Source: Taibaiella chishuiensis | GTDB taxonomy: Bacteria; Bacteroidota; Bacteroidia; Chitinophagales; Chitinophagaceae | DNA length: 64,000 nucleotides | Direction of reading: 5' to 3' | Assembly: GCF_003014535.1 (NCBI RefSeq) | Contig: NZ_PYGD01000016.1 | Location: 1 to 64,000 of the forward strand | In this document: positions 19,106-25,910 of the stretch, one piece after another | Layout of the letters: each line of letters starts with the position of its first letter | Position numbering within the stretch: the stretch's first letter is position 1 | Translations under genes and position numbers: made by a program | The notes under the pieces: model-generated | What the model was told of the DNA's origin: nothing | Seen by the model: only the letters and a program-made list of their open reading frames with translations | Databases searched by the model: none

Positions 19106-19113
19106 TACCTTCG
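19106..19113 (+). promoter_or_regulatory. Candidate -7 element of the thiamin operon
   Basis: TACCTTCG resembles the Bacteroidota -7 box (TAnnTTTG with one change). It lies just before the aptamer, so transcription would start near the first base of P1. Confidence 0.5.
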
Positions 19114-19115
19114 TA

Positions 19116-19192
19116 TCACTTTAGGGGTGCCTTTGTGCTGAGATAATACCCTACGAACCTGATGTAGTTAGTACTGCCGAAGGGAAAAGTGA
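19116..19192 (+). promoter_or_regulatory. TPP riboswitch aptamer (THI box)
   Basis: The conserved THI-box blocks are present in order: GGGGTGC (19124-19130), CTGAGA (19138-19143), ACCC (19148-19151), GAACCTGAT (19155-19163) and GAAGGGAA near 19179-19186. P1 is formed by TCACTTT (19116-19122) and AAAGTGA (19186-19192), 7 bp. It binds thiamin pyrophosphate and controls the thi genes directly downstream. No terminator follows; the expression platform is a start-codon hairpin. Confidence 0.96.
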
Positions 19193-19246
19193 GACCACCT
19201 GTGTACCGGTGTCCTTCGGGGCATTTCCTATCCTGCACAGCCATGT

Positions 19247-19276
19247 CATTCCTAAAGTACATTAATACTTTCAGGA

Positions 19277-19279
<3 letters not shown>
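19247..19279 (+). promoter_or_regulatory. Start-codon sequestering hairpin of the TPP switch
   Basis: CATTCCTAAAGTA (19247-19259) pairs with TACTTT-c-AGGAATG (19266-19279), giving 13 base pairs with a single bulged C and a 6-nt loop. The 3' strand includes AGGA and the thiS ATG itself, so the stem hides the translation start. Its 5' strand CCTAAAGT (19251-19258) is the exact complement of ACTTTAGG (19118-19125), which forms part of P1. The two structures exclude each other. Confidence 0.85.
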
Positions 19280-21332
<2,053 letters not shown>

Positions 21333-21950
21333 ATGAAACAGCTCATCGTTATCACCCATCCGGAGCCGGTACCGCAGGAAGCGGGCCGCATCAACGCCTT
21401 GTTTGATGCAGGCCTGGAGCTGCTGCATATCCGGAAACCGGGCTATAACGAAACGCAGTGCCGGCAACTGTTGCAGGACATTATACCGGCATACCGCAAC
21501 CGGCTTGTATTACACCAGCAACACGAACTGGCAGCAGCGTATGGTATACGGCGCCTGCACTTTCCGGAAACCATGCGTTACCTTACCGGTAAGGTAATCA
21601 TTGAGCAGTGGCACGCAAAAGGCTATACCCTGTCCACGTCGATACATACGCTGGCAGATTATCCCTCCCTGCCCGGCCAGTTTAACTACGCCTTGCTGGG
21701 GCCCTTTGCCGCCAGCATATCCAAGCCGGGTTATGGCGTGGATATGCAACAGGATACTACGGCCGGTATCCCTAAAACGGATACAGCACTTATTGCTGTC
21801 GGCGGCTTACATGCCGGTAATATCACAGCGCCGCTTGCTGCAGGCTTTGATGGCGTGGCATTACTGGGCAGCATCTGGAAAGATGAACATACCACAGATA
21901 ACTTTAAACAACTACAGGCATTATGGCATACGACCGACCCGCAGTACTGA
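21333..21950 (+). CDS. ThiE/TenI-like paralogue
   Basis: This encodes a 205-aa TIM-barrel protein of the ThiE/TenI superfamily. Recognisable segments are LLHIRKPGYNE, LVLHQQHELAAAYGI, RLHFPE, NYALLGPFAASISKPGYG and ALIAVGGLHAGNI. Compared with the canonical ThiE at 22662 it lacks HLGxxD (here HFPET), the INDH loop and the TTTKEK phosphate loop. It is therefore likely not a thiamin phosphate synthase; a TenI-like thiazole tautomerase role is possible. TenI's FGHVF histidine is not obvious (LLGPFAA). It starts directly after thiC and overlaps thiD by 28 bases. Confidence 0.8.
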   Translation: MKQLIVITHPEPVPQEAGRINALFDAGLELLHIRKPGYNETQCRQLLQDIIPAYRNRLVLHQQHELAAAYGIRRLHFPETMRYLTGKVIIEQWHAKGYTLSTSIHTLADYPSLPGQFNYALLGPFAASISKPGYGVDMQQDTTAGIPKTDTALIAVGGLHAGNITAPLAAGFDGVALLGSIWKDEHTTDNFKQLQALWHTTDPQY

Positions 21951-22672
21951 GTATAGCAGGCCTGGATCCCAGTGGGGGTGCGGGTTTGCTGGCCGACATC
22001 AAGACCTTTGAACAGCATCGCTGTCTCGGCTTTGGTGTGGCTACCGCGATCACGGCTCAAACCGAAGACCGTTTTTTCGGCATCGAATGGCTGTCGCCGG
22101 CGTTGATATGGATGCAATGCCAGCCGCTGCTGGACCGCTACCCGGTAGCCGTGGTGAAGATCGGCATTACCGAAAGCCTGCCGGTATTGCTGGACCTTGT
22201 CGACCGGCTGCAGGGCATACGGGATAAGGTACAAATTATATGGGACCCGGTAATCAGGGCCTCTGCAGGCTTCCGGTTTATGGACCCTGCAGATAAAACG
22301 ATGCTGGTGCGCATCCTGCAAGGGCTAAGCCTGCTTACGCCCAATACACAGGAAGCCAGCCTGCTGAGCGGCCTGGAAGACACCGGCGAGGCAGCTTTAT
22401 GGCTGGCACAGTACTGCCCCGTATTACTCAAAGGCGGTCATGCAGCTGAACGGGGCGTCGACTATCTCTTCGAAAAAGGACAACGGACCGCTATCGATCC
22501 CGGACAGGAGGTTTTGCCGCCCAAACATGGTTCCGGCTGCGTGCTCTCCTCTGCTATAGCCGCAGGGTTGGCACGAGGGCATACCCTGCCCGAAGCCTGC
22601 CGCATGGCTAAAACCTATACCGAAACTATTTTAAACAGCAACGATCAATTACTGGCTTATCATGATGCTTAA
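21923..22672 (+). CDS. thiD: Hydroxymethylpyrimidine(-phosphate) kinase ThiD
   Basis: This encodes a 249-aa ribokinase-fold enzyme that phosphorylates hydroxymethylpyrimidine twice. Hallmarks are the N-terminal SIAGLDPSGGAGLLADIKTFEQ, the TAITAQ strand, IIWDPVIRASAGFRF, LTPNTQEASLLSG, LLKGGHA and the anion-hole/catalytic loop PPKHGSGCVLSSAIAAGLARG. Length is typical. It overlaps the preceding gene by 28 bases and the next by 11, so translation is probably coupled. Confidence 0.93.
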   Translation: MAYDRPAVLSIAGLDPSGGAGLLADIKTFEQHRCLGFGVATAITAQTEDRFFGIEWLSPALIWMQCQPLLDRYPVAVVKIGITESLPVLLDLVDRLQGIRDKVQIIWDPVIRASAGFRFMDPADKTMLVRILQGLSLLTPNTQEASLLSGLEDTGEAALWLAQYCPVLLKGGHAAERGVDYLFEKGQRTAIDPGQEVLPPKHGSGCVLSSAIAAGLARGHTLPEACRMAKTYTETILNSNDQLLAYHDA

Positions 22673-23309
22673 CCGACTACAATACATTTCGCAGGGCAAC
22701 AGTGCCGCCGAACAGCTTGGCCATATCCGATCGGCACTGGCGGCCGGCTGCCGCTGGATACAACTGCGCTGGAAGGGGCAACAGGAAGAGGCCCTGCTTC
22801 AGCTGGCCCTGCAGGTAAAAGCCCTGTGCCGGGAGCACAATGCCGTACTGATCATTAACGACCATGCCGCAGTTGCCCGGGTGGCTGATGCAGACGGCCT
22901 GCACCTCGGTCTCGGCGATATGCCGGTAGCGGAAGCACGCCGGCTCCTGGGTCCCGGAAAGATCATCGGCGGTACGGCCAATACACTGGCAGATGTGCTG
23001 CAACGGGCGACCGAGCAATGCGACTACGTGGGTCTTGGCCCCTTCCGTTTTACCACCACCAAAGAAAAACTGAGCCCGGTATTGGGCCTGGAGGGTTACC
23101 GGGATATGATGCAGGCATTGACCACGGCAGGCATTACCCTGCCGGTTTATGCAATTGGTGGTCTGCAAACCGGCGACGTAACAGGGCTTACCGGGGCCGG
23201 TGTATACGGCATAGCTGTTTCCGGGCTCATCAGTCAGGCCAGGCATGCCGCTTCATTAGTACAACAATTAAACCAGCAACTATATGCAAGCACTTCATAT
23301 AGCCGGTAG
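22662..23309 (+). CDS. thiE: Thiamin phosphate synthase ThiE
   Basis: This encodes a 215-aa TIM-barrel enzyme that joins HMP-PP and thiazole phosphate. All canonical motifs are intact: [46 protein letters not shown] and YAIGGL, ending with VYGIAVSG. Two adjacent Met codons open the gene; either could start. It overlaps thiD by 11 bases and thiG by 26. Confidence 0.95.
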
Positions 23310-24051
23310 AACCTTTCAATCCAGGCTATTCCTGGGTACCGGCAAATTTGGATCGGCAGCAGCTATGGAAGCCGCTGTAACAGCATCCGGCACCGAACTG
23401 GCCACCGTGGCTCTGAAACGTATCGACCCGGAAACCGGCACGGATAACCTGCTGGCGCACCTGCAACAGCCGGGCCTGCACCTCCTGCCCAATACCTCCG
23501 GCGCCCGCAATGCGAAAGAAGCCGTATTTGCGGCGCAGCTTGCCCGCGAAGCACTCGAAACCAACTGGCTGAAGCTGGAGATCCATCCTGATCCCAAATA
23601 CCTGATGCCGGATGCGCTCGAAACGCTGAAGGCCACCGAAGAACTGGCCAGGCTGGGCTTTGTGGTATTGCCGTATATCCATGCCGACCCGGTATTGTGC
23701 AAGCAACTGGAAAGCGCAGGTACTGCGGCCGTAATGCCCCTGGGTTCGCCCATCGGCACCAATAAAGGGCTAAAAACGATCGACTTCCTGGAGATCATTA
23801 TCGAACAAAGCAAGGTACCGGTAGTGGTAGACGCCGGTATCGGCGCACCTTCCGATGCCGCACAGGCCATGGAACTCGGCGCCGACGCCGTATTGGTCAA
23901 CACCGCTATTGCCGCATCCGATAACCCGGCCCTGATGGCAACGGCCTTTAAACTGGCTACAGCAGCGGGACGCATGGCTTACGAAGCCCGGCTGGCGGGT
24001 ACTAACCGGCAAGCCATAGCCAGCAGCCCGCTCACCGCATTTTTACAGTAA
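23284..24051 (+). CDS. thiG: Thiazole synthase ThiG
   Basis: This encodes a 255-aa TIM-barrel enzyme that condenses deoxyxylulose phosphate, dehydroglycine and ThiS-thiocarboxylate into the thiazole ring. Diagnostic segments are [12 protein letters not shown] near the start, [10 protein letters not shown] (Lys forming the imine with the sugar phosphate), [45 protein letters not shown] and [30 protein letters not shown]. It starts within thiE's last 26 bases; thiH follows after a 10-base gap. Confidence 0.96.
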
Positions 24052-24061
24052 AGCAGCACCT

Positions 24062-25189
24062 ATGTTTACCGAAATATTCGAGCAATACAACTGGGAAACC
24101 GTAACCGAAAGCATCCTGGCCAAGACCGCCGCCGATGTAGAGCGGGCCCTGGCCCGGCAGAAGCGTAACCTGGAAGACTTTAAAGCGCTGATATCGCCGG
24201 CTGCCCTGCCCTACCTGGAACAGATGGCGCAACTCAGCCGGCTGGCCACGCAAAAGCGCTTCGGCCGGACCATCCAGATGTATGCACCAATGTACCTGAG
24301 CAACGAATGCCAGAATATCTGTACCTATTGTGCCTTCAGCCTGGACAATAAGATCAAACGCAAAACGCTGGGTAATGCCGAGATCCTGCTCGAAGCCGAT
24401 GCTGTCAAAGCCATGGGCTACGACCATATCCTGCTGGTGACCGGCGAGGCCAACCAGACAGTAGGTGTGCCTTACCTGGCCAACGCGCTGCGCCTGGTAC
24501 GGAGCCGGTTTTCGAATATCTCGATCGAAGTGCAGCCGCTCGACCAGGATGAGTATGAAACGCTGATTGCAGAAGGTTTGTACAGTGTATTGGTGTACCA
24601 GGAAACCTACAGGAACGATACGTATAAACAACATCACCCCAAAGGCAAGAAATCCAATTTCCGTTACCGCCTCGAAACGCCCGACAGGCTGGGCAAAGCA
24701 GGTATCCATAAAATTGGGCTGGGCACGCTGATCGGGCTGGAAGACTGGCGTACCGATTGTTTCTTTACTGCGCTGCATCTTTCTTATCTCGAAAAAACGT
24801 ACTGGCAAACCCGCTACTCGATATCTTTTCCCCGGTTGCGACCCATAGCCATCGACCAGGCCGGCACTACGATACACAAGGACTTTGACCGGTATATGAA
24901 CGACAAAGAACTGGTACAACTGATCTGCGCCTACCGGTTATTCAACGAAGAACTCGAGCTATCGTTGTCCACAAGAGAGGAGGCCACCTTCAGGGACCAT
25001 ATCGTACCGCTGGGTATTACGAGTATGAGCGCCGGCTCTAAAACCAACCCGGGCGGCTATGTAGTAGCCCCCGAAACACTGGAACAATTTGAGATATCGG
25101 ACGAACGCAGCCCGGCAATTATTGCCGACATGATCCGCCAACAGGGTTATGAGCCCGTATGGAAAGACTGGGATAAAACATTCAGATAA
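24062..25189 (+). CDS. thiH: 2-iminoacetate synthase ThiH
   Basis: This encodes a 375-aa radical-SAM tyrosine lyase. The CX3CX2C cluster motif is in SNECQNICTYCAFSL (Cys near residues 81, 85 and 88). It cleaves tyrosine to dehydroglycine, the substrate for ThiG, in the anaerobic-type pathway. Other family landmarks are MYAPMYLSNEC, ILLVTGEAN, YETLIAEGLYSVLVYQETY and LGTLIGLEDWRTD, with GITSMSAGSKTNPGGY near the C-terminus. It implies the organism uses ThiH rather than glycine oxidase ThiO. thiF follows after 7 bases. Confidence 0.96.
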   Translation: MFTEIFEQYNWETVTESILAKTAADVERALARQKRNLEDFKALISPAALPYLEQMAQLSRLATQKRFGRTIQMYAPMYLSNECQNICTYCAFSLDNKIKRKTLGNAEILLEADAVKAMGYDHILLVTGEANQTVGVPYLANALRLVRSRFSNISIEVQPLDQDEYETLIAEGLYSVLVYQETYRNDTYKQHHPKGKKSNFRYRLETPDRLGKAGIHKIGLGTLIGLEDWRTDCFFTALHLSYLEKTYWQTRYSISFPRLRPIAIDQAGTTIHKDFDRYMNDKELVQLICAYRLFNEELELSLSTREEATFRDHIVPLGITSMSAGSKTNPGGYVVAPETLEQFEISDERSPAIIADMIRQQGYEPVWKDWDKTFR

Positions 25190-25196
25190 GATTTTT

Positions 25197-25910
25197 ATGC
25201 AAACCGCAGAAGTGATCCGCTACAGCAAACAGCTGATGCTGGACGATATTGGGCCGGCAGGACAACAACGGCTTAAACAGGCGAAAGTATTGGTAATCGG
25301 CGCAGGCGGCCTGGGCTGTCCGCTGCTGTTGTACCTGAATGCCACAGGTATAGGTACCCTGGGCTTTGCCGATGCCGATACCGTCGATGCCACCAACCTG
25401 CACCGCCAGGTATTGTACCGGCAGGAAGATACCGGGCGCAAAAAAGTAAAGGCAGCGCAGGAACGGCTTGCCGCACAAAATCCTTTTACAGAGCTGATCG
25501 CGCACGATACCGCGATAGATGCAGCAAACGCCGCAGCACTGTTCGCAGGTTATGATATCATCGTTGATGGTTGCGACAACTTCGGTACACGTTATATCGT
25601 AAACGATGCCTGTGTAGCCGCTGCCAAACCCTTGGTCTATGGCAGCATTCTGGGTTACGAAGGCCAGCTGGCCGTATTCAATCATAAAGGCTCGGGCCAG
25701 CTCCGCGATATCTTCCCCAATCCGCCCGAACCGGGCGATGTACCCGACTGTTCGGAAAACGGCGTGCTGGGTACCGTACCCGGCATTATAGGCCTGCTGA
25801 TGGCCCAACAGGTAATCGACCTGGTACTGGACCGCTGCACCCTGACCAATCTCTTCCTGATCCTGGATACGCGCAGCCTGGATAAAACGGAACTGCGGTA
25901 CGGCGCATAG
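25197..25910 (+). CDS. thiF: ThiF/MoeB-family adenylyltransferase
   Basis: This encodes a 237-aa E1-like enzyme that adenylates the C-terminal glycine of ThiS. The start at ATG 25197 (MQTAEVIRYSKQLMLDDIG) is chosen because this N-terminus is standard and the frame further upstream overlaps thiH. Landmarks are the nucleotide-binding VLVIGAGGLGCPLLLYL, DADTVDATNLHRQVLY, NARKKVKA-like arginine finger region (GRKKVKAAQERL), VDGCDNFGTRYIVND and VPDCSENGVLGTVPGIIG. The two CXXC pairs of zinc-binding MoeB proteins are absent; one Cys (in PDCSEN) sits at the expected catalytic position. It is last in the thi operon. Confidence 0.92.
   Translation: MQTAEVIRYSKQLMLDDIGPAGQQRLKQAKVLVIGAGGLGCPLLLYLNATGIGTLGFADADTVDATNLHRQVLYRQEDTGRKKVKAAQERLAAQNPFTELIAHDTAIDAANAAALFAGYDIIVDGCDNFGTRYIVNDACVAAAKPLVYGSILGYEGQLAVFNHKGSGQLRDIFPNPPEPGDVPDCSENGVLGTVPGIIGLLMAQQVIDLVLDRCTLTNLFLILDTRSLDKTELRYGA

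Follow-up and report, generated by a model that had tools for sequence, protein, structure and literature searches.

A predicted TPP-sensing OFF riboswitch that most likely controls access to the thiS start codon by strand exchange

A TPP riboswitch aptamer lies directly 5' of thiS-thiC in the window (the whole stretch of 64,000 nucleotides analysed here), with further thi genes downstream (Table 1), and the question raised by this locus is how such an aptamer could act on the start codon of thiS. The reading that we hold with good confidence is that of a TPP-sensing OFF riboswitch, most likely controlling start-codon access by strand exchange. In this model, the first dozen bases of the RNA, ACUUUAGGGGUG, would supply the 5' side of P1 and P2, two helices of the aptamer. 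Without TPP, CAUUCCUAAAGU (19247-19258) would capture ACUUUAGGGGUG once clear of the polymerase, and this capture would open the aptamer and leave the AUG free. If TPP is bound early, P1 and P2 would be locked, CAUUCCUAAAGU would fold back on AGGAAUG, holding the start codon, and initiation would be blocked. The model names the bases to mutate, and it is backed by covariation.

Table 1. Features of the thi leader and operon in the window
Feature	Position	Strand	Support or remark
TACCTTCG, putative sigma-A -7 box, one mismatch from the Bacteroidota TAnnTTTG	19106-19113	+	sequence
TPP riboswitch aptamer (RF00059)	19113-19202	+	cmscan 63.4 bits, E 4.2e-10
ACTTTAGGGGTG, 5' strand of P1 and P2, also antisequestor strand	19118-19129	+	
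P1 3' strand, AAAGTGA	19186-19192	+	
Spacer hairpin, between aptamer and antisequestor target	19199-19240	+	outer stem CTGTGTA/TGCACAG; MFE fold
CATTCCTAAAGT, anti-P1 element, shared with the start-codon hairpin as most of its 5' arm	19247-19258	+	
Start-codon sequestor hairpin	19247-19279	+	19247-19259 with 19266-19279, C19272 bulged
thiS, sulfur carrier protein	19277-19480	+	NCBIfam TIGR01683 53.9 bits, cut-off 37.45
thiC, phosphomethylpyrimidine synthase	19485-21332	+	NF006763 1078.8 bits
Rest of thi cluster	21333-25910	+	
ThiE/TenI-like gene	21333-21950	+	below cut-off
HMP-P kinase-like gene	21923-22672	+	below cut-off
thiE	22662-23309	+	
ORF, no NCBIfam model names it ThiG	23284-24051	+	
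thiH	24062-25189	+	
ThiF/MoeB family gene	25149-25910	+	below ThiF cut-off

The aptamer exceeds the RF00059 gathering score of 54.3 bits and is the sole Rfam match at gathering level within the 64-kb window; from this match and the thi operon context we infer that it binds TPP. The arms of P1, taken as 19113-19122 and 19186-19195, are 90% complementary. Stems of the GTGC/GCAC type were seen by eye at the place of the spacer hairpin in two leaders of the same genus (L004 and L006). Within the operon, the ORF without a ThiG name sits in what we take to be the usual place of thiG, and there are two ThiE/TenI-like genes, of which only the second passes the thiE cut-off. The genome of the window carries a second TPP aptamer (L002, G000:C12:144307-144401, 57.6 bits) at a locus with no ThiS or ThiC match, where the platform differs and has GGTAAG ... 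CTTACC repeats that also occur in L007 and L008.

All sequence elements of the earlier note on this DNA were found in their places, base for base. The octamer ACTTTAGG (19118-19125) and its exact complement CCTAAAGT (19251-19258) form a perfect 8-nt inverted repeat. The alternative pairing had been described as 8 bp long; the octamer match is real, but the helix is 12-13 bp, since in folding with the octamer pairing forced it extends to ACTTTAGGGGTG with CATTCCTAAAGT, including two G-U pairs, plus one further pair. The strand contains the GGGGTG of P2, so that the antisequestor would open the aptamer in P2 as well as in P1. The pairing of the P1 5' strand with this platform element is exclusive of P1, and the same element doubles as an arm of the helix that hides the initiation region; because its 12 nt also make up most of the 5' arm of the hairpin, the two states are mutually exclusive. 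A different competing pairing, CCGAAGG (19177-19183) with CCTTCGG (19213-19219), is an exact 7-nt inverted repeat that would open the 3' side of the aptamer, but the MFE fold places these bases in the aptamer and the spacer hairpin, and we consider it extremely unlikely to be the switch. It was rejected as such because L004 and L006, thiS leaders of the same genus, lack CCTTCGG in their platforms when read by eye.

How far the pairing exceeds chance depends on what is counted. The complement of the octamer arises in only 2 of 5000 shuffles of the platform (19191-19276), and the duplex energy of the window's own pairing gives p = 0.046. Exact 8-nt inverted repeats of any kind, with arms at least 30 nt apart, arise in 204 of 2000 shuffles of 19113-19279, and 51 of the window's 383 tiles contain a comparable repeat. 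Taken over its full length (19113-19300), the leader shows no exceptional stability (z -1.03), with 32 of 200 shuffles folding at least as well. The single sequence of the window alone would not carry the claim; it is conservation and covariation among related leaders that lift the pairing above chance.

A first set of 95 distinct thiS leaders was obtained from ThiC relatives (80 loci with named contigs) and from TPP and leader searches in the genus and the family, the latter with more than 294 genomes in the search set. From 119 ThiS loci, 24 were dropped (9 without an aptamer, 1 without a 3' end and 14 duplicates), and the set takes in Flavobacterium, Myroides, Chryseobacterium, Sphingobacterium, Pedobacter, Dyadobacter, Dawidia and others. 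TPP aptamers were then sought across the class in 119 genomes, 109 of which had a match; among the matches listed, 30 already had a locus and 60 extra regions were taken, the rest being mostly weaker, although one of 71.6 bits (G033:C11) was left out. Among 97 later loci, 57 had no ThiS, 4 were unparsed, 2 repeated known leaders and 1 further duplicate was removed. The final set holds 128 de-duplicated leaders, 113 with the canonical P1 strand and 15 with a variant one. These leaders are phylogenetically related and were partly picked by ThiC similarity, and a covariation test was needed because related sequences are not independent.

The P1 strand, CTTTAGGGGTG preceded by A or G, is present in all 95 leaders of the first set, its GGGTG part having been required by the parser. 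The 12 bases are all paired in 55 of these 95 leaders against 0.43 expected, and the 8 bases in 67 against 5.6 expected. When the 17-nt 5' strand of each aptamer was compared with shuffles of its own platform, p was at most 0.05 in 99 of the 128 leaders (29 miss this level), while the backward strand reached it in 5. For 27 leaders recruited by aptamer score alone, the numbers were 17 and 2. Covariation of 19118-19125 with 19251-19258, whose absence would have refuted the switch in the terms of the earlier note, is found across families. The 15 leaders with a variant P1 strand, paired with their own platforms, sum to -144.8 against -94.1 (sd 9.3) for permuted platforms, a value reached in 0 of 20000 permutations; for the 113 canonical leaders, too, none of 5000 permutations does as well as the leaders' own platforms. 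Tested against shuffled own platforms in 10 families, the variants give a Fisher p of 7.3e-5 with the worst member of each family and of 2.9e-7 with the best member corrected for member number. Changes of both strands can be read in variant L158 (TGCGACTTATAGG with CCTATCAGTTGCA), in L171 and L181 (GTAAAGACAAAG with CTTTGTATTTAC), in L198 (AAACATTAAGG with CCTTAACGTTT), and in L176 against L199 and L217 (GCTTTGG with CCAAAGC versus ACTTTGG with CCAAAGT).

These results bear on the reading in which the start-codon hairpin is constitutive, a device for weak translation, and its complementarity to the aptamer strand arises by chance or as a side effect of A/T-rich self-complementarity. The hairpin is indeed very stable, and an 8-nt repeat is not rare in the window alone, as the shuffles show; even so, several families have changed the P1 strand and the platform to match, and the excess of the forward over the backward strand is 99 to 5, which together make this reading very unlikely. 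Strand exchange is the reading that we retain.

The signal is not uniform among the leaders. Families f14, f28 and f9 add little or nothing to the variant signal, and the same holds for f13 and f46 when their worst members are taken. For five of the 15 variants (L173, L175, L212, L220 and L230) the own platform is not clearly favoured, and for L168, L176 and L217 it ranks only 22nd, 22nd and 29th of 128. With the longer strand, p is 0.136 for L168 and 0.056 for L198. In 82 canonical leaders the octamer is paired at positions 2 to 8, and among these its first position is A-U in 59, G-U in 13, G-C in 3 (L006 from the window's genus, L040 and L042), A-C in 1, A-A in 4 and A-G in 2; this is suggestive of covariation, though weakly. 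Leaders of the Pedobacter type (L059, L063, L065, L067 and L086) keep CATTCC-like arms but have CCTATnGT, in which one or two central bases do not pair with the P1 strand. The exact pattern CATTCCTAAAGT-N5-35-GGAATG is found in 8 of 395 genomes of the class, against 4 genomes for the backward control. The exact word is thus uncommon, and each of its 8 matches (L149-L156) precedes a thiS start. At the level of sequence, the widespread feature is the pairing and not the letters.

A control set was drawn from 127 RF00059 loci, 67 of which have no ThiS or ThiC match; 57 of these 67 could be parsed, the aptamer end badly in a few (for example L240, L241 and L243). The 12 bases are all paired in 4 of these 57 leaders and at least 11 in 7, compared with 65 and 77 of the 128 thiS leaders, but the control is not a clean negative, because some of its four fully paired cases resemble anti-P1 platforms of their own. 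In L189, L196, L239 and L242, which have no ThiS or ThiC match nearby, all 12 nt of the aptamer strand have their complement in the platform, in a very different sequence; the same device may stand before other genes there.

The second helix of the model, the 13-bp hairpin that the earlier note had placed over the thiS ATG, is borne out: its energy is -12.8 kcal/mol (z -5.6), and 0 of 200 shuffles are as stable. The AGGA inside it abuts the ATG without spacing and is therefore unlikely to be usable as a Shine-Dalgarno sequence. Translation initiation in this group is described as relying on properties other than Shine-Dalgarno (PMC9723704). This helix also covaries. In 116 leaders (12 of the 128 were excluded, the anti-P1 duplex being too weak or too close to the ATG), pairing with the own start region gives -1212.7 against -917.1 (sd 25.7) for permuted ones, with 0 of 5000 permutations as low, and the AUG pairs with the arm that holds the anti-P1 element in 87 of the 116. 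CATTCCT and GGAATG stand together over the start in 48 of the 128 leaders, while L020, L028, L034, L128 and L129 have TGTTCAT/ATGAACA instead. The mimicry of the P1 strand near the ATG, which had been pointed out in the window, is real but rare, occurring in 3 of 128 leaders by a strict pattern.

Premature termination offers another output for the same aptamer. In this alternative the output would be mainly transcriptional, through an intrinsic terminator or, in the manner of E. coli thiC, through Rho acting at the start codon or beyond it, with the AUG hairpin secondary. E. coli thiC joins the same topology to Rho-dependent termination (PMC5234074), thiamine lowers the mRNA of the thiSEGCHF-tenI operon in B. 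thetaiotaomicron (PMC5613172), and a 2019 preprint announces in its title that Bacteroides TPP riboswitches regulate transcription or translation (10.1101/867226). Against this, the lack of a terminator stated by the earlier note was confirmed by a plus-strand scan between the aptamer and the ATG, in which no terminator-like site was found; the only plus-strand match, 19314-19333, lies inside thiS. Conserved cover of the AUG in 87 of 116 leaders is also something that a terminator would not need, and blocked translation can itself cause loss of mRNA. An RNA-seq survey including three Bacteroides species reports 6 of 57 TPP riboswitches as transcriptionally active, none of the six being named as Bacteroides, by a method that also missed E. 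coli thiC (PMC12121620). A mainly transcriptional output is accordingly judged unlikely, and its intrinsic form, a G+C-rich hairpin followed by a T run, was sought on the plus strand from the aptamer to the ATG and rejected for lack of any such element. The preferred output remains translational, with or without a knock-on effect on the mRNA level, and a Rho-type or mRNA-decay output may occur.

The energies of the two states were computed on RNA only, without the binding energy of TPP. When the 3' end of the window RNA lies at 19258-19274, the antisequestor is favoured over P1 by 5-8 kcal/mol. Once the 3' arm of the hairpin is out (3' ends at 19278-19340), the OFF state is favoured by 1.6-3.4 kcal/mol, and for the full-length RNA without TPP it is better by about 3 kcal/mol. 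The AUG region is unpaired to 0.73 in the antisequestor state against 0.12 in the OFF state at end 19300, and to 0.41 against 0.05 at 19320. The switch logic proposed earlier is therefore upheld for its competing states, but a simple equilibrium switch is not predicted, as OFF is favoured at full length even without TPP. From this preference of about 3 kcal/mol it follows that switching in the window would depend on a decision made during transcription; by the energy model, anti-P1 is favoured before the sequestor is complete. The first set has 67 leaders, that of the window among them, in which all 8 bases match, and every one of these favours the antisequestor early, a preference that is partly built in because these leaders were chosen for having the match. 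At full length the advantage of the antisequestor is smaller in all 67, and it gives way to OFF altogether in 12. In 62 of the 67 the AUG region is more open in the antisequestor state. L038, L084, L098 and L145 have the antisequestor, but their AUG access is predicted to be nearly the same in both states, and in L040 it changes in the wrong direction.

The position of the promoter would set where the mobile strand begins. The motif TAnnTTTG occupies -12 to -5 in Flavobacterium psychrophilum (PMC9723704), and the putative box of the window, at the same distance, puts the predicted +1 at A19118, where the octamer begins. With a start near 19118, positions 19116-19117 are probably outside the RNA; P1 as given in the earlier note (19116-19122 with 19186-19192) does pair at these positions, but its first two bases are probably not transcribed. 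Of the 128 leaders, 87 have a loose box (TAnnTT[T/C/A]G or TAnnTTTA) that ends 4-6 nt upstream of the octamer and 28 have one at 7-15 nt, while none was found in 13; these are raw counts, uncorrected for chance. If the predicted start is right, the mobile strand would be the very 5' end of the RNA or lie within about 2 bases of it.

In principle the scheme has a precedent in E. coli thiC. There, a TPP aptamer also precedes a thiamin operon with the same anti-P1 topology: a long-range anti-P1 stem (5' region C7-G16 with the 146-154 region) excludes P1 and the stem that sequesters the RBS, and in the OFF form a stem-loop holds the RBS and the AUG. The anti-P1 stem forms while the polymerase hides the partner of the sequestor and locks the aptamer against TPP, the decision was measured as made during transcription, and 77 proteobacterial sequences were aligned in that study (PMC5234074). 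A polymerase pause near the start codon, together with Rho-dependent termination, is a further mark of this type. By those defining features that were tested, the window leader belongs with the anti-P1 translational TPP riboswitches typified by E. coli thiC, as a lineage variant in which the start codon is hidden without an evident Shine-Dalgarno sequence and the switching strand lies at the predicted 5' end of the RNA. It differs from E. coli thiC in phylum and sequence, in a sequestor that pairs the AUG and its flanks, in the pairing of CATTCCTAAAGT with the strands of both P1 and P2, and in having thiS as the downstream gene. E. coli tbpA (thiB) is likewise a translational OFF switch whose anti-P1 stem without TPP opens the initiation region; unlike the window, it sequesters a Shine-Dalgarno sequence and has a GUG start and a transporter operon (PMC11487190). 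Bacteroides TPP riboswitches share the phylum and thiS as first gene of the operon, and a 2017 paper on gut Bacteroidetes calls their mode of action uncertain (PMC5613172). A 2026 covariation study of whole riboswitches leaves the present case uncovered, because its TPP model was built from terminator-type sequences (PMC13273304). In the literature searched, no paper was identified as describing this platform, the 2019 Bacteroides preprint (10.1101/867226) being known by title only.

A wider proposal is put forward tentatively, as a possibility that falls somewhat short of probable. One shared switch might govern thiamin synthesis across much of Bacteroidota, with the 5'-terminal dozen bases of the mRNA moving back and forth between two partners, the aptamer and a word over a start codon that has no Shine-Dalgarno sequence, with promoter, aptamer and start codon in fixed register, and with the first thiS codons mimicking the P1 strand in some flavobacteria. 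The model for the window would likewise provide a riboswitch design for a phylum not reliant on Shine-Dalgarno, in which the start codon itself is hidden.

Two groups of leaders show further features around the start. In the flavobacterial leader L096, GTTTACAG matches the thiS codons CTGTAAAC, and similar pairs were seen by eye in L099 and L102. In these three, again by eye, thiS codons 3-6 copy the beginning of the P1 strand together with its 5' flank (GTAAAC); the codons are complementary to the anti-P1 element, and coding sequence seems to serve as the sequestor arm. The thiS leaders of the Chitinophaga/Hydrotalea type (L038, L057, L084, L098, L137, L144, L145 and L146) share CCTTAAAGTTTATTG-like motifs. 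The anti-P1 element accounts for one part of these motifs but not for their conserved TTTATTG extension or for AUG control. In keeping with Chitinophagaceae, leaders from the window's family closely resemble by eye the Chitinophaga/Hydrotalea ones, L145 resembling L098 and L038 resembling L084.
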